Source of the DNA: Hydrogenophaga sp.
GTDB lineage: Bacteria > Pseudomonadota > Gammaproteobacteria > Burkholderiales > Burkholderiaceae_C
Length of the DNA: 64,000 nt
Assembly: GCF_018780385.1 (NCBI RefSeq)
Contig: NZ_JADMJO010000003.1
Span: forward strand, 558,001-622,000
Direction of reading: 5' to 3'
Shown here: one piece after another, positions 5,755 through 38,791 of the stretch
Position numbering within the stretch: the stretch's first letter is position 1
How the letters are laid out: each line of letters begins with the position of its first letter
Notes under the pieces: model-generated
The model's database searches: none
Seen by the model: the letters and a program-made list of their open reading frames with translations, nothing else
What the model was told of the DNA's origin: nothing
Program-made: the position numbers and the translations under genes

Positions 5755-5768
5755 GCAAACGGTGTGCC
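5755..5768 (-). promoter_or_regulatory. Sigma-54-type -24/-12 promoter of the methyltransferase gene
   Basis: Minus strand GGCACACCGTTTGC: GG and GC exactly 10 bases apart, matching GGCACG-N4-TTGC except one base. Predicted transcript start about 5743, 39 bases before ATG 5704. It faces away from the plus-strand site at 5824. Confidence 0.72.
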
Positions 5769-5823
5769 CGCGTCTCGCACCTCCTCAGTGCATCGCCCAT
5801 GTGGTTCGGAGCCAAGCCCCCTG

Positions 5824-5837
5824 GGCACACCCATTGC
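5824..5837 (+). promoter_or_regulatory. Sigma-54-type promoter of receiver gene 5868
   Basis: GGCACACCCATTGC with correct GG-N10-GC spacing. Predicted start about 5849, leaving a 19-base leader that still contains GGAG (5856-5859) before GTG 5868. This fixes the GTG as the likely start. Confidence 0.72.
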
Positions 5838-5867
5838 CCCGCAGTGGAGGTTCCTGGAGTTCAACTG

Positions 5868-6227
5868 GTGCACGTACTGCTTGCCGATGATGACCGCGAC
5901 TCGGCCGAAACTTTGGCGGAGCTGCTCCTGCTTGCCGAATCGCGCCAGGTCACGATCGTCTTTGATGGTGTCGAGTTGTTGGCGGCAGCGACAGGAATCG
6001 GCACACATCCTGATGTCATCGTCACCGATATCGAAATGCCCAGGATGGATGGGTTCACGGCGGCCAAAAGAATCAGGAGCGCGCTGGGCGCTGCCACCCC
6101 GCTCCTCATCGCTGTCACGGGACACATGGGTCTGGCAAAACTTGCCGCACTCCACAAGGTCTTTGATCATGTCCTTCTCAAGCCATTCAAGATCCAAGAC
6201 TTGGTAAAGCTGCTGCCAGACCTTTAG
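5868..6227 (+). CDS. Receiver-only response regulator (GTG start)
   Basis: 119 aa single REC domain: VLLADDDRDSAET acidic pocket, phospho-acceptor in VIVTDIEMPRMDG, AVTGHMG and LLKPFK lysine. It has no DNA-binding domain. The frame is open upstream to 5703, but homology starts only at VQLVHVLLADD; GTG 5868-5870 has a GGAG eight bases before it and lies just after a sigma-54-like promoter. The gene diverges from the methyltransferase, and the shared control region suggests they respond together. Confidence 0.85.
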   Translation: MHVLLADDDRDSAETLAELLLLAESRQVTIVFDGVELLAAATGIGTHPDVIVTDIEMPRMDGFTAAKRIRSALGAATPLLIAVTGHMGLAKLAALHKVFDHVLLKPFKIQDLVKLLPDL

Positions 6228-6267
6228 CTTCCAGGGCTTCTGTCGAGTTGGTTTCCAACGAGGCTGT

Positions 6268-7470: not shown

Positions 7471-7472
7471 CC

Positions 7473-8813: not shown

Positions 8814-8826
8814 GGCGTTGATTCTT

Positions 8827-11299: not shown

Positions 11300-11313
11300 G
11301 GAACGCCGCTTGC
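11300..11313 (+). promoter_or_regulatory. Sigma-54-type promoter of the DUF4142 gene
   Basis: GGAACGCCGCTTGC: GG-N10-GC spacing, with ACG and TTGC conserved. Predicted start near 11325, 23 bases before ATG 11348, with AGGAG inside the leader. Confidence 0.68.
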
Positions 11314-11347: not shown

Positions 11348-11869
11348 ATGAGCAGTCGAACCCTGAGGCGAGGCGTGCAGGTTCTTGCCGTGCTGATCGC
11401 AGGTGCAGCGTTTGCAGACAACCTGGCGCCCCGCGATCAAGTGTTCCTTGAGCAAGCAGCGCAGCATGGGCACGCCGAACAATCGGCCAGCCGCCTGGCG
11501 CTGACGAAGACGCGCGACGCGCGGGTGCGTGCATTGGCCCAACGCATGATCGACGACAACGCCCGTGTGGTGGAGGAATTGCGCACCCTCGCCGCGTCAA
11601 AAAACTACACACCGCCCCGGGAACCTTCGATGCTGCAGAAGGGCAAGGAAATGCTGGTAGGCGGCCTCAGCGAGGACCACTTCGATCGGCGCTACGTCCA
11701 TCAGATGGGCGTTGTGACGAATGAGACGACGGTTCAACTGTTTGAAGAAGCAGCCCGCGAGGCTCGAGACCCTGACGTGAAGGCCTTCGCCACAAGGCAT
11801 CTGCCCACGGTGCGCGACCACCTGCAGACCGCACGGGAACTCAAGGTTGCGTTCGAGCCGGCGCGTTAA
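11348..11869 (+). CDS. DUF4142 domain protein, secreted
   Basis: 173 aa. Signal peptide ~1-22 (VLAVLIAGAAFA). The mature part is an all-helical DUF4142 bundle (ferritin-like): DQVFLEQAAQHGHAEQSASRLALTKTRDARVRALAQRMIDDN, then DRRYVHQMGVVTNETTVQLFEEAAREARDPDVKAFATRHLPTVRDHL. AGGAG precedes the ATG by eight bases. DUF4142 proteins are periplasmic and often stress-linked, but their activity is unknown. The sigma-54-like promoter ties it to the island regulon. Confidence 0.9.
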   Translation: MSSRTLRRGVQVLAVLIAGAAFADNLAPRDQVFLEQAAQHGHAEQSASRLALTKTRDARVRALAQRMIDDNARVVEELRTLAASKNYTPPREPSMLQKGKEMLVGGLSEDHFDRRYVHQMGVVTNETTVQLFEEAAREARDPDVKAFATRHLPTVRDHLQTARELKVAFEPAR

Positions 11870-12546: not shown

Positions 12547-12560
12547 GCAATCGCCGCGCC
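12547..12560 (-). promoter_or_regulatory. Sigma-54-type promoter of the YflT-like gene
   Basis: Minus strand GGCGCGGCGATTGC; correct spacing, TTGC intact, one mismatch in the -24 box. Confidence 0.6.
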
Positions 12561-12642
12561 CATGCGTCACGTTCTCGCTTCTGAAGGGCAGGCATCGGGA
12601 ACGGGGCTTGCCTCGGTTCGACAGGTGATGCGGCTCCCGCCA

Positions 12643-12690: not shown

Positions 12691-12909
12691 ATGTCTGAAC
12701 ACGACAACGCGGCTCGTCAACGTGCGCAACACGAGAGCAACTATGGTTATGAGTCCGACCACCCGTCCTACCGCGCACGCGGCGCTGGAGACTGGAGCGG
12801 ACGCACGGGCAGGAGAGAACGCTTCGAGCAGGGAAGCACCGATCAAAGCGTTGATGACACCCTCAACTCCCGCGAAGCCAACCGGCGGGAGAAGGACACG
12901 AAGAAGTGA
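12691..12909 (+). CDS. Small hydrophilic hypothetical protein
   Basis: 72 aa, highly charged and probably disordered (HESNYGYESDHPSYRARGAGDW, then EANRREKDTKK at the end). GAAAGGA is upstream of the ATG. Not recognised. It sits between stress genes and converges on rpoN with a 13-base gap. The charge and the YESDHPSYRARG core give it the look of a stress-induced disordered protein, which is an inference only. Confidence 0.6.
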   Translation: MSEHDNAARQRAQHESNYGYESDHPSYRARGAGDWSGRTGRRERFEQGSTDQSVDDTLNSREANRREKDTKK

Positions 12910-12922: not shown

Positions 12923-14377
12923 TCAGGCGTCGTGCCGGCGGCGGCGGCCCACCGCTTCGATGCGAAGCATCTGCCGGTATTTGGTGACGGTGCGCCGGGC
13001 CACCACCAAACCTTGCTGAGCCAACTGGCGCTTGATCTCCGCATCAGACAGGGGCTTGTCGGTCGCCTCTTCCGTGATGAGATCCTGTATCAACCCACGG
13101 ATGGCCGTGCCCGAGCAAGCCTTTCCGCTGGCACTTACCATGGCACGCGAGAAAAAGTGCTTGAGCTCGAACACGCCCAGGGGTGTGGCCATGTACTTGT
13201 TGTTGGTCACGCGCGATACGGTGGACTCGTGACTGCCGATCTCCTCGGCGATTTCCCGCAAGCCCAGCGGCTTCATGGCCATGGGTCCGAACTCCAGAAA
13301 ATGGCGCTGTCGTTTCACGATGGCCCGGGCCACGTCCAGAATGGTGGAGAAGCGCTGCTCGACATTGCGCAGGGTCCACTTCGCTTCCTGCAGGTGCGCG
13401 CCCATCTCCGACGTTTCGGCCGTGTGGTGGCGCTGGTAGAGATCGGCGTACATCTGGTTCAGCCTCACCCGCGGCACGATGGCCGGATTCAACTGCACAT
13501 TCCATTCGCCACGGATCTTTTTCACGATCACATCGGGCACCACGTACGCGATGTGCGACGAACCCCAGCGCCACCCCGGGCGGGGATCGAGCCGGCGAAT
13601 GCGGTCACAGACACTTTCGATGAACGCGGGCGTCTTGCCCAGCTGGCGCGCCAGGCCCTGAACGTCTCTGGCGGCGAGCGCGCTGAGATGAGCGGCAACG
13701 ATGGTGTGGGCCACCGCCCTCATCTCCACGCACTCGATCTCGTGCAACTGAAGCTCCAGGCATTCGGCCACGCTGCGCGCGCCGACGCCCGCGGGCTCCA
13801 GCGACTGAACCATCTTCAGCGCGATCTGCATGTCCGCCAACTCCGCAGGCGGGTCCGTGGTCACCACGTCCAGCAGATCAGCCAACGGCGTCCTGAGGTA
13901 TCCATCGTCGTCCAGAGATTCGACAATCACGCGGGCCAGGCTCAGGTCGCGCTCACACAAGGGCATGGTGTTGAGCTGGCTGGTCAGGTGCATGCTGAGT
14001 GAGCTGTCGGCCGTCATCAGATCCAGCGCGGAGGTGTCGCCGTCTGACGACTGGCGGGAACCCGAGCCTGCATCGGCATGCCACAGATCACGATCGCTCT
14101 CCAGGCCGGCATCCGAAGATTCACTCTCCACCCGGGTGTACTCGTCATCCTGGTCCGATCGGTCCTGCTCTGCGGACACCTCCGCATCGGACGCGTCGAA
14201 CTCTTCGGGGTCGTCGGCGCCCTCTTCAACTTCCAGAAACGGGTTGCGGCCCAGGGTGTCTCGCACCACCTGACCGAAGTCGAGAGAAGACATCTGCAAC
14301 AGGCGAACTGCATGCTGCAACCGGGGAGACAGCGTCTGGCTTTGGCGCTGGTCGGCGCGAACGTCCATGTGGATCAC
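12923..14377 (-). CDS. rpoN: RNA polymerase sigma-54 factor (probable second, island-specific RpoN)
   Basis: 484 aa, full length. Region I (QRQSQTLSPRLQHAVRLLQMSSLDF) is the Gln/Leu-rich activator-response segment; an acidic region II (EVEEGADDPEEFDASDAEVSAEQDRSDQDDE) follows; core-binding region; HTH around GLREIAEEIGSHESTVSRVTNNKYM; and the RpoN box ARRTVTKYRQML near the C-terminus. The start is a GTG at 14375-14377 after a perfect AGGAGGT, or ATG 14368. It is not in the usual lptB-rpoN-hpf cluster, which suggests a paralogue. A sigma-54-like promoter precedes it, implying autoregulation, and many island genes carry matching sites. Confidence 0.95.
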   Translation of the reverse strand: MIHMDVRADQRQSQTLSPRLQHAVRLLQMSSLDFGQVVRDTLGRNPFLEVEEGADDPEEFDASDAEVSAEQDRSDQDDEYTRVESESSDAGLESDRDLWHADAGSGSRQSSDGDTSALDLMTADSSLSMHLTSQLNTMPLCERDLSLARVIVESLDDDGYLRTPLADLLDVVTTDPPAELADMQIALKMVQSLEPAGVGARSVAECLELQLHEIECVEMRAVAHTIVAAHLSALAARDVQGLARQLGKTPAFIESVCDRIRRLDPRPGWRWGSSHIAYVVPDVIVKKIRGEWNVQLNPAIVPRVRLNQMYADLYQRHHTAETSEMGAHLQEAKWTLRNVEQRFSTILDVARAIVKRQRHFLEFGPMAMKPLGLREIAEEIGSHESTVSRVTNNKYMATPLGVFELKHFFSRAMVSASGKACSGTAIRGLIQDLITEEATDKPLSDAEIKRQLAQQGLVVARRTVTKYRQMLRIEAVGRRRRHDA

Positions 14378-14439: not shown

Positions 14440-14453
14440 GCAACCACCATGCC
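14440..14453 (-). promoter_or_regulatory. Sigma-54-type promoter of rpoN
   Basis: Minus strand GGCATGGTGGTTGC followed by A; one mismatch to GGCACG-N4-TTGCA. Predicted start about 14428, 51 bases before the GTG start. Confidence 0.7.
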
Positions 14454-16628: not shown

Positions 16629-16642
16629 GCAAACGGCATGCC
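16629..16642 (-). promoter_or_regulatory. Sigma-54-type promoter of the glsB-like gene
   Basis: Minus strand GGCATGCCGTTTGC preceded by T; one mismatch. Predicted start about 16617, 50 bases before ATG 16567. It is only 32 bases from the opposite-facing site at 16675. Confidence 0.72.
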
Positions 16643-16674: not shown

Positions 16675-16688
16675 GGCACATGGGTTGC
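16675..16688 (+). promoter_or_regulatory. Sigma-54-type promoter of hemerythrin gene 16721
   Basis: GGCACATGGGTTGC; one mismatch to GGCACG-N4-TTGC. Predicted start about 16700, 21 bases before ATG 16721. Confidence 0.72.
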
Positions 16689-18273: not shown

Positions 18274-18287
18274 GCATGGGGCGTGCC
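18274..18287 (-). promoter_or_regulatory. Sigma-54-type promoter of the SDR gene
   Basis: Minus strand GGCACGCCCCATGC: perfect -24 half, ATGC instead of TTGC. Predicted start about 18262, 32 bases before the ATG. Confidence 0.65.
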
Positions 18288-18382: not shown

Positions 18383-18396
18383 GGAGCGCCGTTTGC
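18383..18396 (+). promoter_or_regulatory. Sigma-54-type promoter of CBS gene 18424
   Basis: GGAGCGCCGTTTGC: correct spacing and perfect TTGC, -24 box with two mismatches. Predicted start about 18408, 16 bases before the ATG; AAGGAG lies within that leader. Confidence 0.6.
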
Positions 18397-19821: not shown

Positions 19822-19835
19822 GGCATCTGCCTTGC
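19822..19835 (+). promoter_or_regulatory. Sigma-54-type promoter of the metallopeptidase gene
   Basis: GGCATCTGCCTTGC; GGCA and TTGC intact with 10-base spacing. Predicted start about 19847, one base before ATG 19848, which suggests translation starts further in (GTG 19926) or on a nearly leaderless message. Confidence 0.58.
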
Positions 19836-21071: not shown

Positions 21072-22445
21072 TCAGGCGCCCGAGTGAGCCTCACCTGGGC
21101 CCTGTCCAGCCACCGCGGGCGCACCATCGTTGGTGGTGGCGGGGTGGGACAAGTACTGTTTGGGCAACAGGATCTGAAAGCGCGTGCCTGCACGCCCGGA
21201 CTCAACCTGGATGGTGGCATCCAGCAGCTCACACAACCGCTTGACGATGGCCAGGCCGATGCCTTCGCCATGGCCGGACGGCGCACTGGTGTCGTGGCCA
21301 TCCTCGGCATTGGACGCAGACAAGCCTGCATCTTCGGACGACACATGGGCCACATCACCACTGCGCGCGGCCCGGGCCATGTCGCGTGCGTTGTCGGTGG
21401 CGACTTCCAGTGCATCCAGCACGTCGGACGCCGGGCTGGGCCCCAGGCCCGGCCCCGTGTCTTCCACCTGCAGCGACCAGCGCGCACGATCATTGGGACC
21501 CGCATTCCCCCACGACACCCTCACACCCCCCACCGGGGTGTACCGGATGGCGTTGAGCACAAGGTTCTGCACGATGCGATGGAGTTTGACCATGTCGCTC
21601 TCGACCCAGAACACGGGTTCCCCGGACAGTTCCAGGGACAGTCCCTGCGCTGCGGCGAGTGGTCGAAGGTTCTCGCCCAGATCGGTCAAAAGTGCTGCAA
21701 CATCTACCGTCCCCAGCCGCCGCGGCTCCTGTCCACCTTGCAGCCGAGCCAGGCAGGTGATGTCGTCCAGCAGCTTGTGCAGCGAATGGACGTTGCGTTC
21801 AAGCATGCGCACGAAGTTCTCGCGCCCCGACCCATCCAGGTTGGGATACCCCAGTCCTGCCGTGACGTTGGCCACCACGCCCAGGTTGCCTCGCAGGTCG
21901 TGGGCGGCTTGTTGCCAGAGCAATGCGCGCTGCCGTTCCAGGCTGCGCAGGTCGTTCAACGCGGCCTCGAGTTCGCTCACATAGCTGGCCGCCTCCATCT
22001 GTTGCAGTTTGAAGTACTGGGACGTGCTGCCACTCACGGCCACGCTGAAAATGGAGGCCCACAGCTGCCGTGCGCGGGCCAGGTCCTCGGGCATGGGAGC
22101 AGGCTTCAAAAGGGCGCAAGCGTCGAGCTCCCTCACCACGCATTCGTTGAGATGGCCGAGTTCGCGCGAGACTTCGGCCAACCCGAACCCTTGCTGCCAT
22201 CGGTGCAAGCCGTGCGCGGCGGCGTCGCCCAGGTGGGAAACGTCGGCATCGGGCTCACGCAGCTGGGTTTCGAAACCCTCCAGCAACGACGGAATGTGGT
22301 CGACCAACTGGGCACGTGGCAAGGAGTTGCCCGTGGTCAGTGTGACGTCGGCTTCCACCGAAGCGCGCCACGCTCCCACGATGAGATCGCGGCGCAAAGC
22401 CATGTGGTCGGCCAGTGCGGGAAGTCCTGAATCGAGCGACGGCAT
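21072..22445 (-). CDS. Sensor histidine kinase with RsbRD-like N-terminal domain
   Basis: 457 aa, no transmembrane segments, so a cytosolic sensor. Residues ~15-140 (LIVGAWRASVEADVTLTTGNSLPRAQLVDHIPSLLEGFE) resemble the RsbRD N-terminal domain used in stress signalling. The H-box is WQQAAHDLRGNLGVV with His ~182; then an HATPase with N-box NLVLNAIRYTPVGGV, G1 VEDTGPGLG and G2 GEGIGLAIVKRL. A low-complexity insert of ~45 residues between G1 and G2 (DALEVATDNARDMARAARSGD) is unusual. It converges with the metallopeptidase gene. No sigma-54-like site was seen upstream. Confidence 0.92.
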   Translation of the reverse strand: MPSLDSGLPALADHMALRRDLIVGAWRASVEADVTLTTGNSLPRAQLVDHIPSLLEGFETQLREPDADVSHLGDAAAHGLHRWQQGFGLAEVSRELGHLNECVVRELDACALLKPAPMPEDLARARQLWASIFSVAVSGSTSQYFKLQQMEAASYVSELEAALNDLRSLERQRALLWQQAAHDLRGNLGVVANVTAGLGYPNLDGSGRENFVRMLERNVHSLHKLLDDITCLARLQGGQEPRRLGTVDVAALLTDLGENLRPLAAAQGLSLELSGEPVFWVESDMVKLHRIVQNLVLNAIRYTPVGGVRVSWGNAGPNDRARWSLQVEDTGPGLGPSPASDVLDALEVATDNARDMARAARSGDVAHVSSEDAGLSASNAEDGHDTSAPSGHGEGIGLAIVKRLCELLDATIQVESGRAGTRFQILLPKQYLSHPATTNDGAPAVAGQGPGEAHSGA

Positions 22446-23107: not shown

Positions 23108-23545
23108 CTAGGTGTTGTTGGGGGATGACGTCCTGGCATGTTGCCAGGACGCGATGTGCTGGAGCAATCGGGCAGGGTCCACCGGTTTGGTGAAATGCTC
23201 ATCGAAGCCCGCCGCGTGCGCGCGCAGCTTGTCCTCTGCCTCGCTGCGACCGGTCAGCGCGAGGATCAGCATGTGCAAACCGTCCGCGGACTGGCGGATG
23301 CGCCGGGCGACCGCGTGCCCATCCAGTCCCGGCATACCGATGTCCAGAATGCTGACGTGGGGATGGAAGCGCGCCACCTGGTCCAGTGCTTCAAGGCCAT
23401 TGCGCGCAACTTCGACGGCATGGCCTTCCAGGCTTATCAGCATGGCCAGGGTTTCCACGGCGTCAGCGTGGTCGTCTGCGATCAACACCCGCAGCGGGCC
23501 ACCGTCCGTGGACAGCCAAGGTGAAGGCGAATGGGGGGCGGGCAT
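23108..23545 (-). CDS. Receiver-only response regulator
   Basis: 145 aa from ATG 23545 (a TTG at 23572 is possible). REC landmarks: VLIADDHADAVETL, phospho-Asp in VSILDIGMPGLDG, LALTGRSE and TKPVDPARLL. The pattern with a long receiver and no output is very close to the 3938 gene (GMPG motif, KPxDP ending), suggesting paralogues fed by the same kinase. Followed by mgtC-like. Confidence 0.87.
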   Translation of the reverse strand: MPAPHSPSPWLSTDGGPLRVLIADDHADAVETLAMLISLEGHAVEVARNGLEALDQVARFHPHVSILDIGMPGLDGHAVARRIRQSADGLHMLILALTGRSEAEDKLRAHAAGFDEHFTKPVDPARLLQHIASWQHARTSSPNNT

Positions 23546-23654: not shown

Positions 23655-23668
23655 GGCATGCCGATTGC
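23655..23668 (+). promoter_or_regulatory. Sigma-54-type promoter of the BON lipoprotein gene
   Basis: GGCATGCCGATTGC, identical in all 14 bases to the minus-strand site at 28495-28508. Predicted start about 23680, 25 bases before ATG 23705. Confidence 0.72.
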
Positions 23669-24866: not shown

Positions 24867-24880
24867 GCAAGCCGCGTGCC
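24867..24880 (-). promoter_or_regulatory. Sigma-54-type promoter of the OmpA-type gene
   Basis: Minus strand GGCACGCGGCTTGC, a full match to GGCACG-N4-TTGC. Predicted start about 24855, 50 bases before ATG 24805. The site is quasi-palindromic; a weaker plus-strand reading (24866-24879) could serve the kinase gene at 24918. Confidence 0.75.
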
Positions 24881-24917: not shown

Positions 24918-27164
24918 ATGAAACAGTGGATGCGTTTGCGCTTGAAGCCCCAGTCGATCCGATCGCGCCTGATTCTGTTGGTGCTGGCCATCCTTTTGCC
25001 GTCCCTCGTGGCCGGGTTGTGGGTGGTGGGTCTCACCTTCAGGCTGGCGCGCGACACCAACGAGCGCCATCTTGAAGACACCGCGCGTGCGCTGTCGATG
25101 GTGCTGGACCTCGAACTCGCGAAACGATCGGGGGTGGTGCGTGGCCTGGCGCTCTCACGCATGCTGGATGCCGCACCCAACATTGCCCCCGGCACGCTGC
25201 GCGCATTCGACGAACAGGCGCGTCGCACGCTCACCGGCCTGGAGGGCTGGCTGGAGATGCGCAGCGCCGATCGCGTGTTCATCAATACCCGCTTGACTCC
25301 CGGCGAACTGCCTCGCTCCCTGGCGACAGGGGCCTTGGTGCCGTTGGTCGACACCCCCCAGATCCTGCCGTTGCGGGAAAGCGAGCAACTCGGGATCTAC
25401 CACGCTGCGCTGGTGCAACCGGTGCTGCGCGAAGGTCGCGCCGTGCTCAATCTCACCTTGACCGTGATGCCGCATGAATTCCAGCGCATCATCGACCAGC
25501 AAAAGATCAACGAACAGTGGGTGGCGGCGATCCTTGACAGCGAAGGCCGTCTTGTGGCGCGGCACCCCGGCGGTGCGGCGCATGCCGGACGCTATGCGAC
25601 CGAGGAACTGCGCCAGCGTTTGTCCACCGAACGGGAAGGCCTCCTGCACACGAAGTCGCTCGAGGGCAACGACATCACCATCTTCTTCAGCACGTCCGCA
25701 CAAGGCTGGACGTACGTCACCGGCATGCCCACGGCGCGCTTCGAAGGTGTGGTGCCGGAGGACGTGCGCAACGCGGCGCTCGCCACCTTGCTGATGCTGA
25801 CGCTGGCCATCGCCGCTGCCCTGGGGGTTTCGCGCAGCATCGTGCGCCCGATCCACGCCATCAAGCAACTCGCACTGGGCATGCGGGACGGGGGAGCCGT
25901 GCACGCGGATGCCACCGGCATCACCGAGTGCGACGACGTGGCCCAGGCCCTGGAGCGGGCCAGCGTATCGATTCGAGGTGCTCAGGTCGAGTTGGAGCAG
26001 CGCGTGGCTGAGGCCGTCGCCCTCACCCGCAACGCCGAACAGCGGATGTCGCACAGCCACCGGCTTGAGGCCCTGGGCCGGCTCACGGGTGGCGTGGCAC
26101 ACGACTTCAACAACCTGCTGGGCGTGATCAGCAACAGCGCGCACCTGATGCTGAGAATGACAAGCGACCCGGAGTTCATCTCGGCACTGGAGGCCTCCCT
26201 GCGGGCGGTGGGCGCCGGGAGCCGCCTGACCCAGCACCTGTCCCGGTTCGCCGGACGCCAACCAGTACGTCCTTGCGTCATCCACCTGGCGATCTTTCTG
26301 CCCGAAGCCGCCGATCTGATTCGCGCGTTGATGGGTCGCCATATCAAGCTCACGGTGGTGATCGACCCGTCGATGCCGACGTTGTTCGCCGATCCCAACG
26401 AGCTTGAACTTGCCCTGATCAACCTGGCGCTCAATGCCCGCGACGCCATCGCCGAACGTGGCCATGTCGAGCTTCGGACCTTGCGGGCCGAGCCCGACGA
26501 CTGTGCGGAGCTGGATCAGGAAGACTGCGTGGTCGTGTCCGTCACCGATGACGGACACGGTATGGGCGAGGACATCATCAAGCGGGTGTTCGAGCCCTTC
26601 TTCTCCACCAAGGACCACCTGCAGGCCACTGGGCTGGGGCTCAGCCAAGTGTACGGCTTCTGCCACCAGTCGGGGGGCACCGTCCGGATCAACAGCACGC
26701 CGGGGCTGGGCACCACGGTGAGCATGGTTTTGCCGGCGTCCGGTGCCAGCGAGCCCGCTGTTCCCCCCACCGGTGCCCGCCCATCCATCATCGGCGCCCG
26801 TGTGCTGCTGGTGGACGACAACGAGGAACTTCGCGGTGTCACCGCAGCGCTGCTGGCCACCTTCGGCTGTGAAGTGATTTCCAGCCCATCGCCCCAGGAG
26901 GCACTGCGCATCCTGCAGAACAACGGAAGCATCGACGTGGTGCTCACCGACGTGCTCATGCCCGGCCCCATGGATGGCGTCGCCCTGGCCAAACAAGTGC
27001 GCGAACTCATGCCTGCGTTGCCGGTGGTGTTGATCAGCGGCCACCGGGGCAACGCCGAGGACCTGGACTTCCCTTTCATCCAGAAGCCGTGCACGCCTGA
27101 GGCCCTGGTGGCTGCGCTTGAGAAGGCGATGGCTTTGCAGCGTGAGGGATGCACACCTCCCTGA
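24918..27164 (+). CDS. Hybrid sensor histidine kinase/response regulator
   Basis: 748 aa. TM1 ~18-41, periplasmic Cache-like sensor ~42-285 (WVAAILDSEGRLVARHP is a typical Cache strand), TM2 ~286-305, HAMP ~306-360, coiled coil, HisKA H-box GRLTGGVAHDFNNLLGV with His395, HATPase with NLALNARDA, DDGHGMG and TGLGLSQVYG, then a C-terminal receiver (LVDDNEELR ~631-639, phospho-Asp678 in VVLTDVLMPG, K723). The HDFNN-type H-box is shared by kinases that feed NtrC-like regulators, so the activator at 28535 is a candidate partner. It diverges from the OmpA-type gene over the shared 24806-24917 gap. Confidence 0.94.
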   Translation: MKQWMRLRLKPQSIRSRLILLVLAILLPSLVAGLWVVGLTFRLARDTNERHLEDTARALSMVLDLELAKRSGVVRGLALSRMLDAAPNIAPGTLRAFDEQARRTLTGLEGWLEMRSADRVFINTRLTPGELPRSLATGALVPLVDTPQILPLRESEQLGIYHAALVQPVLREGRAVLNLTLTVMPHEFQRIIDQQKINEQWVAAILDSEGRLVARHPGGAAHAGRYATEELRQRLSTEREGLLHTKSLEGNDITIFFSTSAQGWTYVTGMPTARFEGVVPEDVRNAALATLLMLTLAIAAALGVSRSIVRPIHAIKQLALGMRDGGAVHADATGITECDDVAQALERASVSIRGAQVELEQRVAEAVALTRNAEQRMSHSHRLEALGRLTGGVAHDFNNLLGVISNSAHLMLRMTSDPEFISALEASLRAVGAGSRLTQHLSRFAGRQPVRPCVIHLAIFLPEAADLIRALMGRHIKLTVVIDPSMPTLFADPNELELALINLALNARDAIAERGHVELRTLRAEPDDCAELDQEDCVVVSVTDDGHGMGEDIIKRVFEPFFSTKDHLQATGLGLSQVYGFCHQSGGTVRINSTPGLGTTVSMVLPASGASEPAVPPTGARPSIIGARVLLVDDNEELRGVTAALLATFGCEVISSPSPQEALRILQNNGSIDVVLTDVLMPGPMDGVALAKQVRELMPALPVVLISGHRGNAEDLDFPFIQKPCTPEALVAALEKAMALQREGCTPP

Positions 27165-27176: not shown

Positions 27177-27190
27177 GGAACGCCATGTGC
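27177..27190 (+). promoter_or_regulatory. Sigma-54-type promoter of the PA2169-like gene
   Basis: GGAACGCCATGTGC: correct spacing, same GGAACGCC start as the DUF4142 site, but GTGC at -12. Predicted start about 27202, 66 bases before ATG 27268. Confidence 0.5.
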
Positions 27191-28494: not shown

Positions 28495-28508
28495 GCAATC
28501 GGCATGCC
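28495..28508 (-). promoter_or_regulatory. Sigma-54-type promoter of the DUF883-like gene
   Basis: Minus strand GGCATGCCGATTGC. Predicted start about 28483, 69 bases before ATG 28414. Confidence 0.72.
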
Positions 28509-28534: not shown

Positions 28535-29974
28535 TCAGCCTTCGCCGCCCTCGGTACCTTTGTCGGCCGTGTACTGTTTGAGACGGTTGTAAAGCGTCTT
28601 CAAACTGATCCCCAATGCCGCCGCCGTGCGCTCCTTTTGATGCCGGTAGTGGCGAAGCGTGGCCAGAATGATGGTCTGCTCCGCCTCGGCGAGCGTCACC
28701 CCCATCGAGATGACGATCGAATCGCCCTGCGCGCGCGGCTCGGCGGGTGCGGGCTCGGGCTCGCGCGTGCTCACCTCCACGGGCACCGGTGTGGCGGCCG
28801 GGACATGGGCATGATCGTCCACCTGCCGGGGCAGCCACTGTGCGTCAATGTGTGAGTCCAGCGACATCACGTAAGCCCGGTACACCGCGTTGCGCAGCTC
28901 CCTCACATTGCCTGGCCATGGGTAGCGGGCGAGTTGCTCGAGCGCCTCGGGTGTGAAGGTCTTGCTCTTGCCCTCCTGCGTGCTGACCATGCGCAGAAAG
29001 TGCTCTGCCAGCAGACCCACGTCCGAGAGTCGCTCACGCAGCGGCGGCAACTCGATGGGAAACACATTGAGTCGATACATCAGGTCTTCGCGCAGGCGCC
29101 CGTTGGCCACCGCTTGTGCCGGAGGTCGGTTGGTGGCGGCGACGATGCGCACGTCGGTCTCCTGGGTCTGGGTGGCGCCCACCCGCATGAAACGCCCGGT
29201 CTCCAGCACACGCAAGAGCTTCACCTGCAGGTCCAGGGGCATTTCCGTTATTTCATCCAGAAACAGGGTGCCGCCCGCGGCACGTTCGAAGAAGCCCTGG
29301 TGTTGGCGCTCGGCGCCCGTGAAGCTGCCCTTCTCGTGGCCAAAGATTTCACTTTCGATCAGGTTGGGCGAGATCGCTCCGCAGTTGACCGCCAGGAACG
29401 GCATCTTGCGCCGGCGGCTCAGCTCGTGAATGGTCTGGGCAACCACTTCCTTGCCGGTTCCACTTTCCCCCGTGATGAACACGGTGACGCCGGTGCCCGC
29501 CACACGGGAAATCTGCTCATACACGCGTCTCATGTTGGGAGCGCGCCCCCAGAGCTGCCCGAAATGCCCGTCGCTGGCAAGTTTTTCCGTCAAATCTGCC
29601 ACTTCGGCCTGAAGCACGGCAGGCTTCGTCACGCGCGAGAGCACGCCTTGCAGATGCTTGAGGTTGATGGGTTTGACGATGTAGTCCACCGCACCCAGAC
29701 GCAGCGCAAGAATGGACGTTTCCAGACTCGCGTGGCCGGTGATGAGCACCACCTCGGAATTGGACAGGAGCTCAGGATCCTTGAACAGGTCCATGCCGCT
29801 CCCGTCGGGCAGGCGCAGATCGAGCAGCACGATGTCGGGCTGTTGAAGCGCGAGCTGTTTGCGCGCATCCAACAAGTTGGAGGCGGTGGACACCGTGAGG
29901 CCTTCGCTGGCGATCAACGCCTTGAGCGACGCGGCCGAATCCACATCGTCCTCGACGATCAAGGCGTGAGTCAT
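28535..29974 (-). CDS. Sigma-54-dependent NtrC-family response regulator
   Basis: 479 aa. REC ~1-115 (VEDDVDSAASL, phospho-Asp52 in IVLLDLRLPDGSG, K101), AAA+ ~140-370 with Walker A GESGTGKE (169-176), the sigma-54 contact loop GSFTGA (216-221, in place of the commoner GAFTGA), Walker B GTLFLDEI (235-242) and sensor RLNVFPIELPPLRER, then a Fis-type HTH near the C-terminus (ERTAAALGISLKTLYNRLKQY). It is an enhancer-binding activator and the only one in the window, so it is the best candidate activator of the -24/-12 promoters found around it. It has no such site of its own. Confidence 0.96.
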   Translation of the reverse strand: MTHALIVEDDVDSAASLKALIASEGLTVSTASNLLDARKQLALQQPDIVLLDLRLPDGSGMDLFKDPELLSNSEVVLITGHASLETSILALRLGAVDYIVKPINLKHLQGVLSRVTKPAVLQAEVADLTEKLASDGHFGQLWGRAPNMRRVYEQISRVAGTGVTVFITGESGTGKEVVAQTIHELSRRRKMPFLAVNCGAISPNLIESEIFGHEKGSFTGAERQHQGFFERAAGGTLFLDEITEMPLDLQVKLLRVLETGRFMRVGATQTQETDVRIVAATNRPPAQAVANGRLREDLMYRLNVFPIELPPLRERLSDVGLLAEHFLRMVSTQEGKSKTFTPEALEQLARYPWPGNVRELRNAVYRAYVMSLDSHIDAQWLPRQVDDHAHVPAATPVPVEVSTREPEPAPAEPRAQGDSIVISMGVTLAEAEQTIILATLRHYRHQKERTAAALGISLKTLYNRLKQYTADKGTEGGEG

Positions 29975-30604: not shown

Positions 30605-30618
30605 GCAACTTGCGTGCC
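30605..30618 (-). promoter_or_regulatory. Sigma-54-type promoter of the proline-rich gene
   Basis: Minus strand GGCACGCAAGTTGC, a full match to the consensus. It is 32 bases from the opposite-facing site at 30651. Confidence 0.75.
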
Positions 30619-32369: not shown

Positions 32370-34933
32370 GGTGTGTACCCCAATTTTTTCATGGCGGATG
32401 TGAGGGCGCGCGCCGAGCGGGCGTAACCGCTCCACGGCGCATTGCCCGTGGGCAGACGCTCCTGCACGCTGCGGATGTTCCAGTGGTCCCCACCGCGCAG
32501 CGAGGCCAGCTCGCCCCACTCCACCGGCACCGAGACGCCCAGCCCAGCCCGCGCTCGCGCAGACCAGGCACTCACCGTGGTGGCGCCGCGACCGTTGCGC
32601 AGGTAGTCAACAAAAATCTTGCCCACCCGGTTCTTCGGACCGCTCCTGGCGACGAATCGCTGCGGAATGACCTGGCTCATGTGTTGCACCACCGCCTGCG
32701 AGAAACCCTTGGCCTCGTCCCAGGTGTGTTGCAGACGAATGGGCACGACCACGTGCAGGCCCTTGCCGCCGCTGGTCTTCAAAAAACACGTCAGGCCCAA
32801 CTGCTCAAGGAGCGATTGCGTGAGCAGCGCCGCCTCCTGCACTTGCTCCCAGCCAACACCCTCCCCCGGGTCCAGATCGAACACCAGGCGATTGGGTTTC
32901 TCGAAGCTCTTGACCACCGCGTTCTGGGTATGGAACTCGACCACATTCCATTGCGCGGCCGACAACAGCCCTTCACGTTGGTCCACGGCGATCCAGGGTG
33001 CCTTGCCGGGTGACGACGTGAGCTCGAGTTGCGTGATGCCGGGCAGCGGGTTGGTGAGGTGCTTCTGGAAGAACATCTCACCATCGATGCCCTCGGGCGC
33101 CCGCAGCAGCGCAACCGGGCGCTGCTTGACGTGCTCGATCATCAAGGCGGCCACCGCTTCGTAGTGCTGGAACAGATCGAGTTTGGTCGCGCCGGTGGTG
33201 GCGTCGATGACGCGTTCAGGGTGGCTGATGCGCACCGGGCGCGATGAGGTGGGGGCTTTGGCAGGCACGGGAGCTTTGTCGGGTCTGGGGGTTGGCGCAG
33301 GGGGATCTGCCGGTTGCGGCAACTCCCGTTCCACGGTGTGGGCGGGTTTGTCTTCGCGCAACCCCACAAACACACCATGGCGAACGTGCCCGTCGTGGGT
33401 CCAATCGGAAAAAGTGACTTCTGCCACCAGCGTGGGCTCGATCCAGTGCGCCTTGCCGACCAAGGTCGGTCGCGTGGCGAAAGGGCTGGACGGCCGGGTG
33501 AGAGGCTCCATGCGGCGACGCAGGCTGGTGAGTGTCTTGGTGCTGAAGCCGGTGCCCACGTTGCCCACGTGGCGCAACTCACCCTGCTCATTGAAAACGC
33601 CCAGCAGCAATGCGCCAAAGCCGGTGCGGGCACCCTTGCCTTCGGTGTAGCCACCGATCACGAACTCCTGACGCTGGCCGCACTTGAGCTTCAGCCAGTC
33701 GGTGCTGCGCGTGGTGCGGTAGGTAGAGCCCTTGCGCTTGGCGATCACCCCTTCAAGCCCGAGTCGGCAGGCCGAGAGCAACACCGTGTCCGCCGCTCCG
33801 TCAAACGCGGCGCTGAACTGCACCTCACGCACCGGCGAGCGTGCCAGCACACGCTCCAGAACTTCCCGACGCTCAACCAAAGGAGCAGCCCTGAGATCGT
33901 GTCCATCCACAAAAGGCAGATCAAACAGATAAAACACCACGTCGGACGTGCGTCCGTTGTCGAACGACTGCTGCAGGGCGCCGAAATCGGGCAGGCCTTT
34001 GGCGCCGGGAACCACGATTTCGCCGTCGTACCACCCATTGGGCAAAGCCATGCCCACCAAGGCGTCGTGCAAGGGCTTCAGGCGCGAGGTCCAGTCGTGT
34101 CCGTTTCGGGTGAACAGCTTCACCGCCCCGCCGTCGATGCGGGCCAGCATGCGGTAGCCGTCGAACTTGATCTCGTACATCCAGTCGGCGTCGTCGGTCG
34201 GCGGCCGCTCGACCCGGGTGGCCAGTTGGGGCGACAACTTGTCTGGCAGTTCGCTGGCCACAGCCTTTGAGGGCAAGGTCGGCTGAGCGGAGGCATTGCC
34301 GGCCTTGCTCTTTTTCGGCTTCACGGCAGGGGTGGTGGCCGCTGCGGAAGACACGCTGTCCGGCGCAGCCTCGACAACGCTGTATTCCCGCTCGTCCCGG
34401 GCAAACGCATCACGCTCTTTCAACAGAAGCCAGGCGGGCTTGGCCTCGTTGCCCTTCATGCGCACCAATGCCCAGCGCCCTTGTAGTTTGTGGCCCACGA
34501 GATCGAACTTCAGACTTCCCTTGCGAAGCCCCTCCATCGGATCGCCCAGCGGCTGCCACAGGCCCTTGTCCCACACGATGACGCGGCCCGCGCCGTATTG
34601 ACCGGCAGGAATGGTGCCTTCGAAGGCGGCATAGGCGACCGGATGGTCTTCCACCTCCACGGCCATGCGCTTGACCGACGGATCCAGGCTCGGTCCCTTG
34701 GGCACGGCCCAACTCTTCATCACGCCATCGAGCTCCAGGCGGAAGTCGTAATGCAGGTGACTGGCCCAGTGCTTCTGCACCACAAAGCCCAAGGCGTCGG
34801 ACGCCGTGACCGCCTCACCCGCAGGCTCGGGTGTGACGGAGAAGTTGCGCTTGGACGTGTAGGGCTGCAGCAGCTCCTGCGATTGCAGCGGCTGGGAGGG
34901 CTTGGCGTGTGTTCGCCGGAGTGTGGGGGCCAT
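32366..34933 (-). CDS. ligD: ATP-dependent DNA ligase D (phosphoesterase-ligase-polymerase)
   Basis: 855 aa in the Pseudomonas-type order. 3'-phosphoesterase domain ~30-195 with HWASHLHYDFRLE (55-67) and DHPVAYAAFEGTIPAGQYGAG; a ~50-residue Ala/Lys linker; ATP ligase ~240-540 with adenylation lysine in YEIKFDGYR (Lys ~256), ITRxx-type EGVIAKRKGSTYR and the OB-fold WIEPTLVAEVTFSDWTHDGHVRH; a Pro-rich linker; primase/polymerase ~575-850 with VFDLDPGEG. With Ku it rejoins double-strand breaks. ATG 34933 coincides with the start predicted from the sigma-54-like site at 34945-34958, so the message may be leaderless. Confidence 0.97.
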   Translation of the reverse strand: MAPTLRRTHAKPSQPLQSQELLQPYTSKRNFSVTPEPAGEAVTASDALGFVVQKHWASHLHYDFRLELDGVMKSWAVPKGPSLDPSVKRMAVEVEDHPVAYAAFEGTIPAGQYGAGRVIVWDKGLWQPLGDPMEGLRKGSLKFDLVGHKLQGRWALVRMKGNEAKPAWLLLKERDAFARDEREYSVVEAAPDSVSSAAATTPAVKPKKSKAGNASAQPTLPSKAVASELPDKLSPQLATRVERPPTDDADWMYEIKFDGYRMLARIDGGAVKLFTRNGHDWTSRLKPLHDALVGMALPNGWYDGEIVVPGAKGLPDFGALQQSFDNGRTSDVVFYLFDLPFVDGHDLRAAPLVERREVLERVLARSPVREVQFSAAFDGAADTVLLSACRLGLEGVIAKRKGSTYRTTRSTDWLKLKCGQRQEFVIGGYTEGKGARTGFGALLLGVFNEQGELRHVGNVGTGFSTKTLTSLRRRMEPLTRPSSPFATRPTLVGKAHWIEPTLVAEVTFSDWTHDGHVRHGVFVGLREDKPAHTVERELPQPADPPAPTPRPDKAPVPAKAPTSSRPVRISHPERVIDATTGATKLDLFQHYEAVAALMIEHVKQRPVALLRAPEGIDGEMFFQKHLTNPLPGITQLELTSSPGKAPWIAVDQREGLLSAAQWNVVEFHTQNAVVKSFEKPNRLVFDLDPGEGVGWEQVQEAALLTQSLLEQLGLTCFLKTSGGKGLHVVVPIRLQHTWDEAKGFSQAVVQHMSQVIPQRFVARSGPKNRVGKIFVDYLRNGRGATTVSAWSARARAGLGVSVPVEWGELASLRGGDHWNIRSVQERLPTGNAPWSGYARSARALTSAMKKLGYTP

Positions 34934-34944: not shown

Positions 34945-34958
34945 GCAAACGGCGAGCC
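34945..34958 (-). promoter_or_regulatory. Sigma-54-type promoter of ligD-ku
   Basis: Minus strand GGCTCGCCGTTTGC, one mismatch, correct spacing. The transcript would start at the A of ATG 34933. Confidence 0.6.
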
Positions 34959-34986: not shown

Positions 34987-35202
34987 TCACTGCGTTCCCG
35001 TGCCGCTTCGAGGCGGGGTAGCGGTTCCGTCCGGCGAGCTCGCCGGCGGCATCGGGGTGGCAGCGGGCGGACGAACGGTGTCATCCCCGGTGGTGGGCCT
35101 CGGTGGGTCCGAGGGGTTGCGGTCGCACGCGGTCAGCAGTGATCCGGATGCCGCGACCAGCACCGCGCAAAGACAAGCTCTGAAAGTGGCAGTGGCGTGC
35201 AT
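34987..35202 (-). CDS. Small lipoprotein
   Basis: 71 aa. Lipoprotein signal with lipobox LLTAC (Cys ~26), then a Pro/Thr-rich disordered tail (NPSDPPRPTTGDD and so on). AGGAGG lies eight bases before ATG 35202. A sigma-54-like promoter precedes it. No recognised family. Confidence 0.72.
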   Translation of the reverse strand: MHATATFRACLCAVLVAASGSLLTACDRNPSDPPRPTTGDDTVRPPAATPMPPASSPDGTATPPRSGTGTQ

Positions 35203-35250: not shown

Positions 35251-35264
35251 GCAATTCAGGTGCC
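35251..35264 (-). promoter_or_regulatory. Sigma-54-type promoter of the small lipoprotein gene
   Basis: Minus strand GGCACCTGAATTGC; one mismatch. Predicted start about 35239, 37 bases before ATG 35202. Confidence 0.72.
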
Positions 35265-35302
35265 TGTCACACGACACGCCCATGCCCACCTCGCGTGCTC
35301 CG

Positions 35303-35719
35303 CTACGGCCTCGAAATGCCCACCAGCGCCTTGGCCGTCACCTCGAGGTCATTCACCTCCACGGCAAAGTCCCCGAGCGACACGATCCCGACCAGGCGCT
35401 TGTCGGCATTCACCACCGGCAATCGCCGGATCTGGCACATGCTCATCTTTTTGGCGCCTTCATCCACGGGTTCGTCCTCGTAGGCCCAGACCACCTCTTT
35501 GGACATCACTTCACGAACCAGGGTGTCGCAGCCCATGCCCTCGGCGACGGCACGCACCGCGATGTCGCGGTCCGTCACCGCGCCGATCATCCGGTCGTTC
35601 TCGCTCACGGGGAGCATCCCGAAGCCTTCGTCGCGCATCATCGCGGCGGCATCCCGCAGCGTCGCGTCCGGGCTGATCACCTGAACGTCGCGACTCATCA
35701 CGTCTTTCATTTGCTGCAT
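35303..35719 (-). CDS. Tandem CBS-domain protein
   Basis: 138 aa, two CBS motifs: MKDVMSRDVQVISPDATLRDAAAMMRDEGFGMLPVSENDRMIGAVTDRDIAVRAV, then MCQIRRLPVVNADKRLVGIVSLGDFAV. Close in plan to the CBS protein at 18424. It lies 38 bases after katE on the same strand and has no clear promoter of its own (the nearest GC/CC pair is spaced 9, not 10), so it is probably read from the hemerythrin-katE transcript. Confidence 0.93.
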   Translation of the reverse strand: MQQMKDVMSRDVQVISPDATLRDAAAMMRDEGFGMLPVSENDRMIGAVTDRDIAVRAVAEGMGCDTLVREVMSKEVVWAYEDEPVDEGAKKMSMCQIRRLPVVNADKRLVGIVSLGDFAVEVNDLEVTAKALVGISRP

Positions 35720-35757
35720 GTTCGTCTCCTTGGAACAGCTGATTGCGGCTTGGTGCC

Positions 35758-38169
35758 TTACACCGCCGGCGGGTCGGTTTCGCGTTCGGGGTGGCGGTGT
35801 TTCGCCATGGCCTGAATGAAGGCATCCACGCCGGCGTCCGTCACGATGCCCGGATCGGGGTCCCCCGACGGCAACACCACAGCCACGCCCGCCGCATCGA
35901 GCAAGCTCATCGACGCAGGCATCACCATGATGGCCTTGCAGTGGCGGTGCTGATCGCGGATGAACTCCATCGTATGGCCGTCGCGCGCCAAAGCGGCAAC
36001 CCCAGCATCTCCGTCCGGCAGCACCAGCGAGTCGAACAGGAAGCCCGGCTCGTTTTCCAGGGACGCGTCGGCGTCGATGGCCACGCCGTCACTGGTGGTC
36101 ACGGGCCCGATGCGTGGGGCCACGAAGCGCGGCACGGCACCTTGTGCGAAGAGCGCCGCGTGCACGTTCATGACGCTTTGGCCTTCGACCCCGTCGGCCA
36201 CCAGAATCGCCACCTTCCTGGCTTTGATCGAACCATCGCCCGGACGGGCCAGCAGCGACAGCGTGGGCGACTTGCTCACTTCGGGCTTGGCCGGGTTGTC
36301 CAGCGCCCGGGGCATGGGCGGTGGCATCTGCGCCATGCCCAGGCCCTCGGCCACTTGGGCCGCCAACTTCTCGGAGGCATTGCGCAGTGAAGAGATCATG
36401 CGCTCCCGAATGGCAGGCACCGTCACCTTGGACAGCTCGAAGCGGAAGGCGGCAGCGATGTGCGCCTGCTCCACCGCGCTCTGGCTCTCGAAGAAGAGCG
36501 TGGCCTGGGTGTAGTGGTCGGCAAACTTCTCGGGCTTGGCGCGCACCTTCCCCTGCTCTTCCTTGGCTTGGATGCGCGCTGGAACCGACACGAAGCCTTG
36601 CTGGGCGCCGGCCTGGAACGGGCAACCACCTCCCAGCGAATTGGGTTCGTAGTTGGCGCGGCCCCGGTGAATGGCTTGACGGTGCATGCCGTCGCGCTGG
36701 TTGTTGTGCACCGGCGCCAGGGGGGAGTTGATGGGAATCTCGTGGAAGTTGGGACCACCGAGCCGGGTGATCTGCGTGTCGACATAGGAATGGATGCGCC
36801 CCGCCAACAAGGGATCGTTCGAGAAATCCAGCCCGGGCACGATGTGCGCCGTGCAGAACGCCACCTGCTCGGTCTCGGCAAAGAAGTTGTCGGGGTTGCG
36901 GTTGAGCACCATGCGCCCCACCGGCCGCACAGGGACCAGTTCTTCGGGAATGATCTTGGTTGCGTCCAGGATGTCGAAGCTGAACTCGTCGGCCTGTTCT
37001 TCGGTGAACACCTGAAGGCCCAGTTCCCACTCGGGGAATGCGCCGGATTCAATGCGCTCCCAGAGGTCGCGACGGTGGTAATCCGGATCGGCACCGGAGA
37101 TCTTCACCGCCTCGTCCCACACCAGCGAGTGCGTGCCGTAGATCGGGTTCCAGTGGAACTTCACGAAAACGGAATCACCCGCCTCGTTGACCATGCGGAA
37201 GGTGTGCACGCCAAACCCCTGCATGGTGGCATAGCTGCGCGGAATCCCGCGATCGGACATCGCCCACATCAGCATGTGCGTCGACTCGGGCATGAGCGAG
37301 ACGAAGTCCCAGAAGGTGTCGTGAGCGCTGGCGGCCTGAGGCATCTGGTGATGCGGCTCGGGCTTCACCGCGTGCACCAGGTCCGGGAACTTCATGGCGT
37401 CCTGGATGAAGAACACCGGCATGTTGTTGCCCACCAGATCCCAGTTGCCCTCGTCGGTGTAGAACTTCACCGCAAAGCCCCGCACATCGCGCGCGGTATC
37501 CTTCGAGCCCCGCTCGCCCTGCACGGTGGAAAACCGCACGAACACCGGCGTGACCTTGCCCGCTTCCTTGAAGGGCGCAGCCTTGGTGATGTCGGTCAGC
37601 GGTTCGTAGCACTCGAAGAAACCGTGCGCACCCGAGCCGCGTGCATGCACGATGCGCTCCGGGATGCGCTCGTGGTCAAAGTGCGTGAGCTTCTCGCGCA
37701 GGATGAAGTCTTCCAGCAGCACCGGACCCCGCACGCCGTATTTCAGCGAGTTCTGGTTGTCAGCGATGGGCACGCCCTGGTTGGTCGTGAGCATCTGCCC
37801 GGAAGAATCCACCCGCACGCGGTCGAGCGATTCGATGGTCCAGTTCACGCCTTCGGTCGCCACACCACCCGTCTTCTCGGAGTGATTCTCCTCAGACAGC
37901 GTGCTGCCCGAGGGGAGTCGCGATTCCGGCTCCACAGTGGCGCCAGGCGCGGGCGAGACACCATTCTGGAAACCATGCTCCCCAGCCTTGTTCGGGTTGA
38001 AGGGCATGGATTCGGCAAGGTGTCCGGTCTGCACGGCTTTGGCAGACGCCTGATCGCCCGCTGCCTCGACCTTGGAAGGTGCACTGTCGGTGTTGCGGGT
38101 GGCGGCTTTGGCGGCACTGTTGGCGCCCTTGGAGTCGCCACGGGAATCGGTGTTGCTGGATCTGGGCAC
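35758..38169 (-). CDS. katE: Large-subunit (HPII/KatE-type) catalase
   Basis: 803 aa, clade 2 catalase. A disordered Ser/Ala-rich N-terminus ~1-80, then the catalase core: catalytic His in [15 protein letters not shown], Asn in [17 protein letters not shown], haem-side [18 protein letters not shown], and proximal Tyr in [23 protein letters not shown]. The C-terminal ~150 residues are a flavodoxin/DJ-1-like domain ([27 protein letters not shown]) as in E. coli HPII. Removes hydrogen peroxide in stationary phase/stress. It follows the hemerythrin gene by 36 bases. Confidence 0.97.
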
Positions 38170-38205
38170 GGTGAGGCTCCTGAAATGGGGTCTATCGACA
38201 GGCCG

Positions 38206-38688
38206 TCAGGCCACTTCCACGCCCATGAGCGCTTCCTTGCGTGCCATCAGTTCCTCTCGCATGGCCACCAGGTCGAGTTCACGTGCAGCCCTCGCCTTGG
38301 GGAACATCTCGTTGCGCTCTTCCTTGACGTGGTGGTCGATGTATTCACCGAGCACCTTGACCTTGGCGTCAAACATCTCGTCGGCTTGCTCCATGGACCC
38401 GATCTGCGCGATGAGGTCTTTGGCGCTGGCGTGCTCCACCTCGGCCTCGGCCAGCAGGTCGGTGTCTTTGAGCGCCGCGCGCAAGGCGGGATAGAAAATT
38501 TCTTCCTCGATGGTGGCGTGAACGGTCAGCTCATGGCAGATCTGGTGCGCCAGATCGAGCTTCTTCTGGTCCACGCCGCGGGCCTTGGAGCCCACGAGTT
38601 CTTCATAGGCTTTGAACATTTTCTTGACCGCCTTGTGGTCGGAATCGAGCAAGGTGCATGCGTCTGCTTCTTGGCGAATGGTGGCCAT
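38206..38688 (-). CDS. Hemerythrin HHE-domain protein
   Basis: 160 aa, no membrane helix. Di-iron ligand pattern: LLDSDHKAVKKMFKAYEEL, ICHELTVHATIEEEIFYPALR, AEVEHASAKDLIAQIGSM and IDHHVKEERNEMFPKAR. A cytosolic oxygen, NO or iron-handling protein. AGGAG precedes ATG 38688. First gene of the hemerythrin-katE(-CBS) operon under the sigma-54-like promoter at 38778-38791; the pairing of a di-iron protein with catalase suggests a peroxide/iron defence unit. Confidence 0.93.
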   Translation of the reverse strand: MATIRQEADACTLLDSDHKAVKKMFKAYEELVGSKARGVDQKKLDLAHQICHELTVHATIEEEIFYPALRAALKDTDLLAEAEVEHASAKDLIAQIGSMEQADEMFDAKVKVLGEYIDHHVKEERNEMFPKARAARELDLVAMREELMARKEALMGVEVA

Positions 38689-38777
38689 TGGGATCTCCTG
38701 GATCGGTGTGTGTGGTGGGGGTAAGGGAATCGGGTGATTTGCGTCGGTCGTGTTGCAACCTGGCGCACGGCTCGGTG

Positions 38778-38791
38778 GCAAGCCGTGTGCC
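38778..38791 (-). promoter_or_regulatory. Sigma-54-type promoter of hemerythrin-katE
   Basis: Minus strand GGCACACGGCTTGC; one mismatch. Predicted start about 38766, 78 bases before ATG 38688. Confidence 0.72.

Follow-up and report, generated by a model that had tools for sequence, protein, structure and literature searches.

A 64,000-nt stretch of Hydrogenophaga sp. DNA (positions 558001-622000 of contig NZ_JADMJO010000003.1, in a genome of 5.38 Mb; hereafter the window, numbered from its first letter) carries an island of about 33 kb, from 5.7 to 38.8 kb, in which the gene of a second sigma-54 factor, RpoN2, lies together with an NtrC-type activator gene, kinase genes and many genes preceded by -24/-12 promoter-like sites. 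On sequence evidence we consider it probable, at about 0.7, that this island houses a dedicated sigma-54 paralogue along with its regulon, with a cascade running from the housekeeping factor RpoN1 to RpoN2. An original prediction, made from the letters of the window, had described the island as a self-contained and mobile-looking sigma-54 general stress regulon with about nineteen promoters. In this analysis genes were called with a codon model and named by Pfam; the Pfam scan covered 50 window proteins, up to 48.7 kb. The regulatory features are as follows.

12923..14377, minus strand: RpoN2, second sigma-54 factor, 484 aa (Pfam Sigma54_AID, CBD and DBD)
14440..14453, minus strand: the -24/-12 promoter of rpoN2 itself, GGCATGGTGGTTGC, a purine-class site carrying A at -11
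21072..22358, minus strand: histidine kinase (Pfam HATPase_c)
23108..23488, minus strand: single-domain response regulator (by Pfam)
24918..27164, plus strand: hybrid histidine kinase-receiver (Pfam HATPase_c, Response_reg), a possible input to the activator
28535..29974, minus strand: NtrC-type enhancer-binding protein, putative cognate activator (Pfam receiver, AAA+ and Fis-type helix-turn-helix)

The island RpoN is a sigma-54 factor, as predicted. Its AID, CBD and DBD domains all exceed the Pfam cut-off, it scores 424.5 bits against TIGR02395 (cut-off 277) and its RpoN box reads ARRTVTKYRQ. The genome has two rpoN genes, the other at C131. In a tree of nine RpoN2 and 23 RpoN1 proteins, the two clades were split at 100/100. 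Among 60 genomes of the family, full-length RpoN2 relatives with 55-70% identity were found in eight, the window's own included, and the remaining matches, pieces included, were 30-49% identical to the window RpoN2; G011 holds one 75% identical fragment. The RpoN box differs in a fixed manner between the clades (ARRTVTKYRQ in RpoN2; ARRTVAKYRE or -D in RpoN1), and the -12 recognition helix in a nearly fixed one (mostly VTNNK in RpoN2; VTTAK or VTTQK in RpoN1). Window R389 aligns with the E. coli arginine R383, and NN stands in place of TQ three and four residues beyond. NCBIfam PRK12469 was rejected as a label of the RpoN2 clade, since all three RpoN1 proteins tried also exceed its cut-off. 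G053 holds two RpoN2 copies, of which the second (C36:87156-88631) is divergent at 55% identity, adjoins a 46% identical activator and has no strict promoter site around it; it is perhaps a further specialised sigma-54 factor. In the window genome no RpoS match passes the curated cut-off. An RpoS match of at least 356 bits was present in 20 of the 60 family genomes, in 13 of them over the curated cut-off, and the next matches stood at 282. RpoN2 was rejected as a general replacement of RpoS: RpoS-level matches occur in 5/8 genomes with RpoN2 and in 15/52 others.

The nineteen promoters proposed earlier bore up well. GG-N10-GC was found in 19/19, at or no more than 1-2 bases from the stated position, and the called genes contain none of these sites. 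The window was scanned with a matrix of the literature sigma-54 consensus, untrained on the window, with a strict score of at least 12. Within the island, 16 matches reached this score between genes (4,292 bp) and six in coding DNA (29,208 bp); the rest of the window had none in 2,116 bp of intergenic DNA and five in 28,369 bp of coding DNA. In 300 Markov shuffles, the mean was 0.53 matches and the maximum three. The pair 18272/18273 is one site scored on both strands, so the 16 matches mark 15 places. Seventeen of the nineteen sites score at least 9.5, with 18383 and 27177 below. A control of 180 kb, taken from the contig that holds the window, had nine intergenic matches in 10.7 kb, about a quarter of the island density. 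Of the 69 genomic matches to GGCAY-N5-TTGCC, 13 lie in the island, 12 of them intergenic. Since the matches outside the window number 55, eight of them intergenic, the regulon is largely self-contained, as had been claimed; it comes with its own RpoN and NtrC-type activator and is conserved across genera.

This conservation was examined in named genomes with an RpoN2 alignment. The best 80 of 352 matching stretches, 57-77% identical, were kept; RpoN1 is possibly among the 352. The closest named ones are from Hydrogenophaga. The best 80 are mostly from Burkholderiales, in the genera Hydrogenophaga, Roseateles/Pelomonas/Mitsuaria, Rubrivivax, Azohydromonas, Aquabacterium, Methylibium and Caldimonas and in Comamonas terrae; outside this order RpoN2 was found in Propionivibrio, in a Rhodocyclaceae metagenome-assembled genome (MAG) and in a MAG labelled Methylotenera. 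Counted with no adjustment for shared ancestry and with rpoN2 promoters excluded, the strict pattern GGCAY-N5-TTGC has 336 intergenic matches (193 kb; 1.74/kb) and 46 coding ones (1,359 kb; 0.034/kb) in these loci, a 51-fold difference in density. The reversed pattern occurs twice in intergenic and ten times in coding DNA. At least one strict site not belonging to rpoN is present in 80/80 loci, and a site precedes rpoN2 in 70/80. With rpoN2 included, the N5 spacing gives 406 intergenic matches, and the other spacings between 2 and 9 give 3-24 apiece. The motif is directional because its two half-sites differ, and start codons peak 20-60 bp downstream of it, with 179 in the site direction and 29 in the opposite one.

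The promoters of the window are listed below with the genes behind them; all are of the RpoN2 type, and the eighteen from the earlier list have C at -11. Fractions are relatives with a strict site, window members being excluded and internal operon genes and weaker sites uncounted.

5755..5768, minus strand: methyltransferase gene 4550-5704
5824..5837, plus strand: receiver protein 5868-6227 (or start 5844); 19/25
11300..11313, plus strand: DUF4142 gene 11348-11869; 0/8
12547..12560, minus strand: gene 11956-12480 for an unknown protein of 174 aa; 2/17
12598..12611, plus strand: open reading frame (ORF) 12691-12909; absent from the earlier list
16629..16642, minus strand: GlsB/Transgly_assoc 16295-16567, 14/18; behind it ORF 16028-16252, Holin-X and lipocalin genes
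16675..16688, plus strand: hemerythrin 16721-17323; family 21/45
18274..18287, minus strand: short-chain dehydrogenase/reductase (SDR) 17325-18230; 3/39
18383..18396, plus strand: CBS protein 18424-18900 followed by BrkB, left half of the site weak; CBS family 10/26
19822..19835, plus strand: Peptidase_Mx 19962-21050, 127 bp away; 0/11
23655..23668, plus strand: BON protein 23705-24019; 11/21
24867..24880, minus strand: OmpA-like protein 24107-24805; 13/17
27177..27190, plus strand: weak; DUF2383 protein 27268-27726; 9/46, often with a weaker site
28495..28508, minus strand: DUF883-like protein 28070-28414; 13/27
30605..30618, minus strand: proline-rich ORF 30251-30529, 92 aa
30651..30664, plus strand: Crp/Fnr-type regulator 30729-31469; 11/11
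34945..34958, minus strand: LigD 32366-34933 (0/5) and Ku 31488-32357 (0/2)
35251..35264, minus strand: lipoprotein-like ORF 34987-35202, no Pfam match
38778..38791, minus strand: hemerythrin 38206-38688; downstream on the same strand catalase 35758-38169 (2/8) and CBS protein 35303-35719

Each site had been said to point to a start codon, mostly 20-80 bases downstream. The first gene calls put 13/19 sites at 12-90 bp and the others farther away, and re-read starts at 5704, 24805, 28414, 30529 and 35202 place five further sites 49-81 bp upstream. Site 19822 keeps its 127 bp even after re-reading. The called LigD start, 12 bp from site 34945, may be too early. The weak site at 12643 is unsupported; 12598 (GGAACGGGGCTTGC) is the better one for that gene. 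The DUF883 label of the 28070-28414 protein, kept here from the original prediction, has no Pfam DUF883 match behind it. Five small or unknown proteins (11956-12480, 12691-12909, 16028-16252, 30251-30529 and 34987-35202) are without Pfam match, and all but one of them directly follow RpoN2-type sites. ORF 30251-30529 is uncertain as a gene, since it has neither a Pfam match nor a homologue in related loci. Persistence of the sites in relatives is mixed: they are kept before many families, best before the Crp-type regulator, GlsB, OmpA-like and receiver genes, and are rare or absent before several others. Families beyond the list include AsmA-like proteins (10/16) and an unknown protein of 171 aa (12/20). 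The hybrid kinase has no good sigma-54 site of its own in the window and has a strict one in 11/41 relatives; the CBS gene at 35303 has no site of its own in the window.

The base at -11, directly after TTGC, separates the rpoN2 promoter from the other promoters, a contrast which the original prediction did not contain. In the window, C is at -11 in 18/19 sites and the sole exception, A, is the rpoN promoter. In the 80 loci, the targets have C294 T34 A6 G2, that is, C or T in 328/336, whereas the rpoN2 promoters have G44 A24 T2 C0, that is, a purine in 68/70. Counting unique 15-mers, the targets have C157 T31 A6 G1 and the rpoN2 promoters G24 A17 T2. The split between targets and rpoN2 is perfect in 60/70 loci, and C is the majority in 27 of the 30 families with at least three scored sites. 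Among the islands of the family, each of the eight rpoN2 promoters found, the window's included, carries A or G; the second G053 copy has no such promoter. The rpoN2 promoters differ also at -10 and -9, where the T frequency is 0.53 and 0.61, versus 0.13 and 0.22 in targets. Farther upstream, TTTRCCG or its complement (CGGYAAA) lies within 260 bp of the rpoN2 promoter in 50/70 loci, with a peak at -160 to -120; the reversed control gave 7/70, and targets gave 41/294 with ten in their reversed control. A variant form, judged by eye, is seen in the window at 14455-14610 on the minus strand. This element is a candidate enhancer for an activator.

Both the DUF2383 site and the activator go together with RpoN2. 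Before DUF2383 genes, a site scoring at least 9 lies at -37 to -79 in 6/8 genomes with RpoN2, and in nine loci of eight RpoN2-less genomes no site scoring 9 was found within 110 bp, the best being 6.8 (Fisher p 0.002, relatedness ignored). Two of the RpoN2-less loci have farther matches, 9.0 at -239 and 10.3 at -211. This comparison leaves out G043, an incomplete genome with a site at -89 and no RpoN2 found. The activator of the island, of NtrC type as had been predicted, is an AAA+ protein with a GSFTGA loop (a GAFTGA variant), Walker A and a Fis-type helix-turn-helix. It has a match at E<=1e-110 in seven of the eight genomes with full-length RpoN2 and in one of the 52 others, at most 26 candidates being scored per genome, so that absence is no proof.

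From these observations the following pathway may be drawn. A signal would pass, probably through the local kinases, to the NtrC-type activator, and this protein would open complexes of RpoN2 and polymerase at some 19 promoters resembling GGCAY-N5-TTGCC. The protective genes driven in this way would be those of hemerythrins (with catalase behind one), of GlsB, DUF883-like, BON, OmpA-like and CBS proteins, of SDR, DUF2383, the Crp-type regulator and Ku/LigD, and others. A pyrimidine at -11, mostly C, would mark a promoter for RpoN2. The rpoN2 gene, with its purine at -11, would most likely be read by housekeeping RpoN1, giving a two-step sigma-54 cascade. In its general form for Burkholderiales, RpoN1, aided by an upstream activator, would fire rpoN2 from a promoter with a purine at -11. 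RpoN2 would then use an activator of its own to fire the stress regulon from promoters with C at -11; we hold this two-tier system to be a tentative proposal with slightly less than even odds. If true, it may imply an all-or-nothing, ATP-gated stress response that is insulated from nitrogen control by one promoter base.

Several results weigh against the reading of the island as a dedicated RpoN2 regulon with its cascade. With the plain consensus and two mismatches allowed, the whole window showed no enrichment (52 matches, 43 expected, 10/100 shuffles as high); enrichment emerges with restriction to intergenic DNA or with a stricter pattern. No strict site lies upstream of rpoN2 in 10/80 loci, none near the second G053 copy, and none in intergenic DNA at the G011 fragment. 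The site is poorly kept before SDR, catalase and 174-aa protein genes and was not found in relatives before DUF4142, Peptidase_Mx, LigD and Ku genes; several of the genes that most suggest stress (catalase, Ku, LigD) are rarely or never directly targeted there. The lone activator match outside the RpoN2 genomes is a fragment in G016, and the limit of 26 candidates bears on the co-occurrence. A dyad search upstream of the targets found no clear activator site; the top dyad is the promoter motif itself, and other dyads resemble coding or divergent-gene sequence. The -11 split is imperfect in the other ten loci, T is the majority in 3/30 families and a purine is present in 8/336 target sites. The rpoN2 promoters are orthologues of one another, so a single inherited event may account for their purine.

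The alternative that survives best is autoregulation, in which RpoN2 weakly reads its own purine -11 promoter as a damping feedback and there is no RpoN1 cascade. A site upstream of rpoN2 within the same island fits this, and the purine is mostly G, which is less usual in the RpoN1-like sites of the host: T-led intergenic sites elsewhere in that genome have A7 T7 G3 C2 at -11 (the first three being the 17 intergenic of 25 matches, with C2 counted separately), and, to judge by their sequence starts, the genes behind them resemble gltB, nirB and transporter genes. However, C is at -11 of rpoN2 in none of the 70 promoters, and the enrichment of TTTRCCG before rpoN2 over targets suggests a different control. 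We give autoregulation a clear minority of the probability.

It is rather unlikely that the gene set serves the envelope or biofilm and not a stress response. Hemerythrins, catalase, DUF2383 and non-homologous end joining (NHEJ) genes suggest a response to oxidative, metal or DNA-damage stress; catalase and NHEJ genes seldom keep the site. Of the predicted general stress programme, the regulon with its own RpoN and activator is supported; the stress label, including a stress trigger, comes from gene content and domain names. OmpA, BON, AsmA-like, PRC-barrel and mechanosensitive proteins among the targets speak for an envelope role, and sigma-54 is described in the title of PMC3162934 as a controller of the bacterial exterior.

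We consider it unlikely, more so than the envelope programme, that either RpoN reads these sites as ordinary sigma-54 promoters, with RpoN2 redundant and the -11 base a result of GC drift. The domains are common to both sigma-54 factors, and in Bradyrhizobium DOA9 both RpoNs are reported to have bound most tested promoters in electrophoretic mobility shift assays (PMC13207237). This is opposed by C at about 88% at -11 of the targets with flanking positions near background, by its absence at the rpoN2 promoter in the same DNA, by its occurrence in no more than 2/19 of the T-led host sites and by the DUF2383 relatives that are without a site in RpoN2-less genomes. We rejected as very improbable that the motif is not a promoter but an operator palindrome, GGCA-N7-TGCC, bound by a dimeric repressor or activator: most sites are such inverted repeats and the dyad ranks first in the upstream search, but the half-sites are unlike (A versus C or T in 294/372 intergenic pairs, like letters in 20), the N5 spacing is exactly that of sigma-54, the sites face genes at 20-60 bp, and the rpoN2 promoter breaks the palindrome.

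Sigma-54 paralogues in which -11 plays a role are already known. In Cereibacter (Rhodobacter) sphaeroides, base -11 reportedly influences the choice between RpoN1 and RpoN2 (PMC11999139, PMC3162934). The RpoN2 system resembles C. sphaeroides RpoN1/RpoN2/RpoN3, several paralogues with an activator and gene set each, in that the paralogue clade is separate and -11 differs between promoter sets, each of which would have its own reader. The likeness is one of description; C. sphaeroides differs in being alphaproteobacterial, with regulons reported for nif, flagella and a CtrA regulator and not for a stress island. Bradyrhizobium DOA9 RpoNp is reported as a second sigma-54 factor whose predicted regulon is small, whose motif is altered and for which a role in stress is proposed (PMC13207237). 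It differs in that its motif changes precede GG and precede GC and do not concern -11, and in that it is carried on a megaplasmid (PMC13207237). Among the PLSDB matches listed, two Bradyrhizobium plasmid RpoN copies are about 33% identical to RpoN2. Ralstonia solanacearum and Xanthomonas have second rpoN copies too, studied for virulence, motility and growth; no PLSDB record reached 60% identity and no Ralstonia record is among the matches listed, so the RpoN2 clade is possible there. The RpoS general stress regulon contains broadly similar protective gene types but belongs to a different sigma class with no activator requirement.

Among the open-access papers listed, none describes this regulon in Burkholderiales, judged by titles and abstract starts, and no published account of the content, spread and -11 split of the RpoN2 system was found in these searches. 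Responses to stress are generally attributed to RpoS, SigB or extracytoplasmic function (ECF)-type factors, and a sigma-54 paralogue in charge of a conserved stress island would bring in a class of stress control that is strictly gated by an activator. The natural -11 contrast in tens of genomes would make cross-talk avoidance between duplicated sigma-54 factors directly testable. RpoN2 would also be a probable regulator for poorly understood families, such as hemerythrin-domain, GlsB, BON, DUF2383 and unnamed ones.

The description of the island as mobile-looking found no support. There is no tRNA in the window, GC is nearly unchanged (0.643, slightly lower than 0.662; GC3 0.795 versus 0.837-0.863), and no integrase or transposase is among the Pfam names of the 50 proteins up to 48.7 kb, border repeats being outside the search. 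Plasmid origin was rejected, as no PLSDB record matches RpoN2 at 60% identity or more. The patchy occurrence, in 8/60 family genomes, is compatible with loss and transfer alike. Adjoining the island, three PEP-CTERM proteins are encoded in tandem at 39291-41755, with polysaccharide genes further right. ORF 56245-63930 on the minus strand encodes 2,561 aa with a C-terminal match to DUF3739 (filamentous haemagglutinin family).

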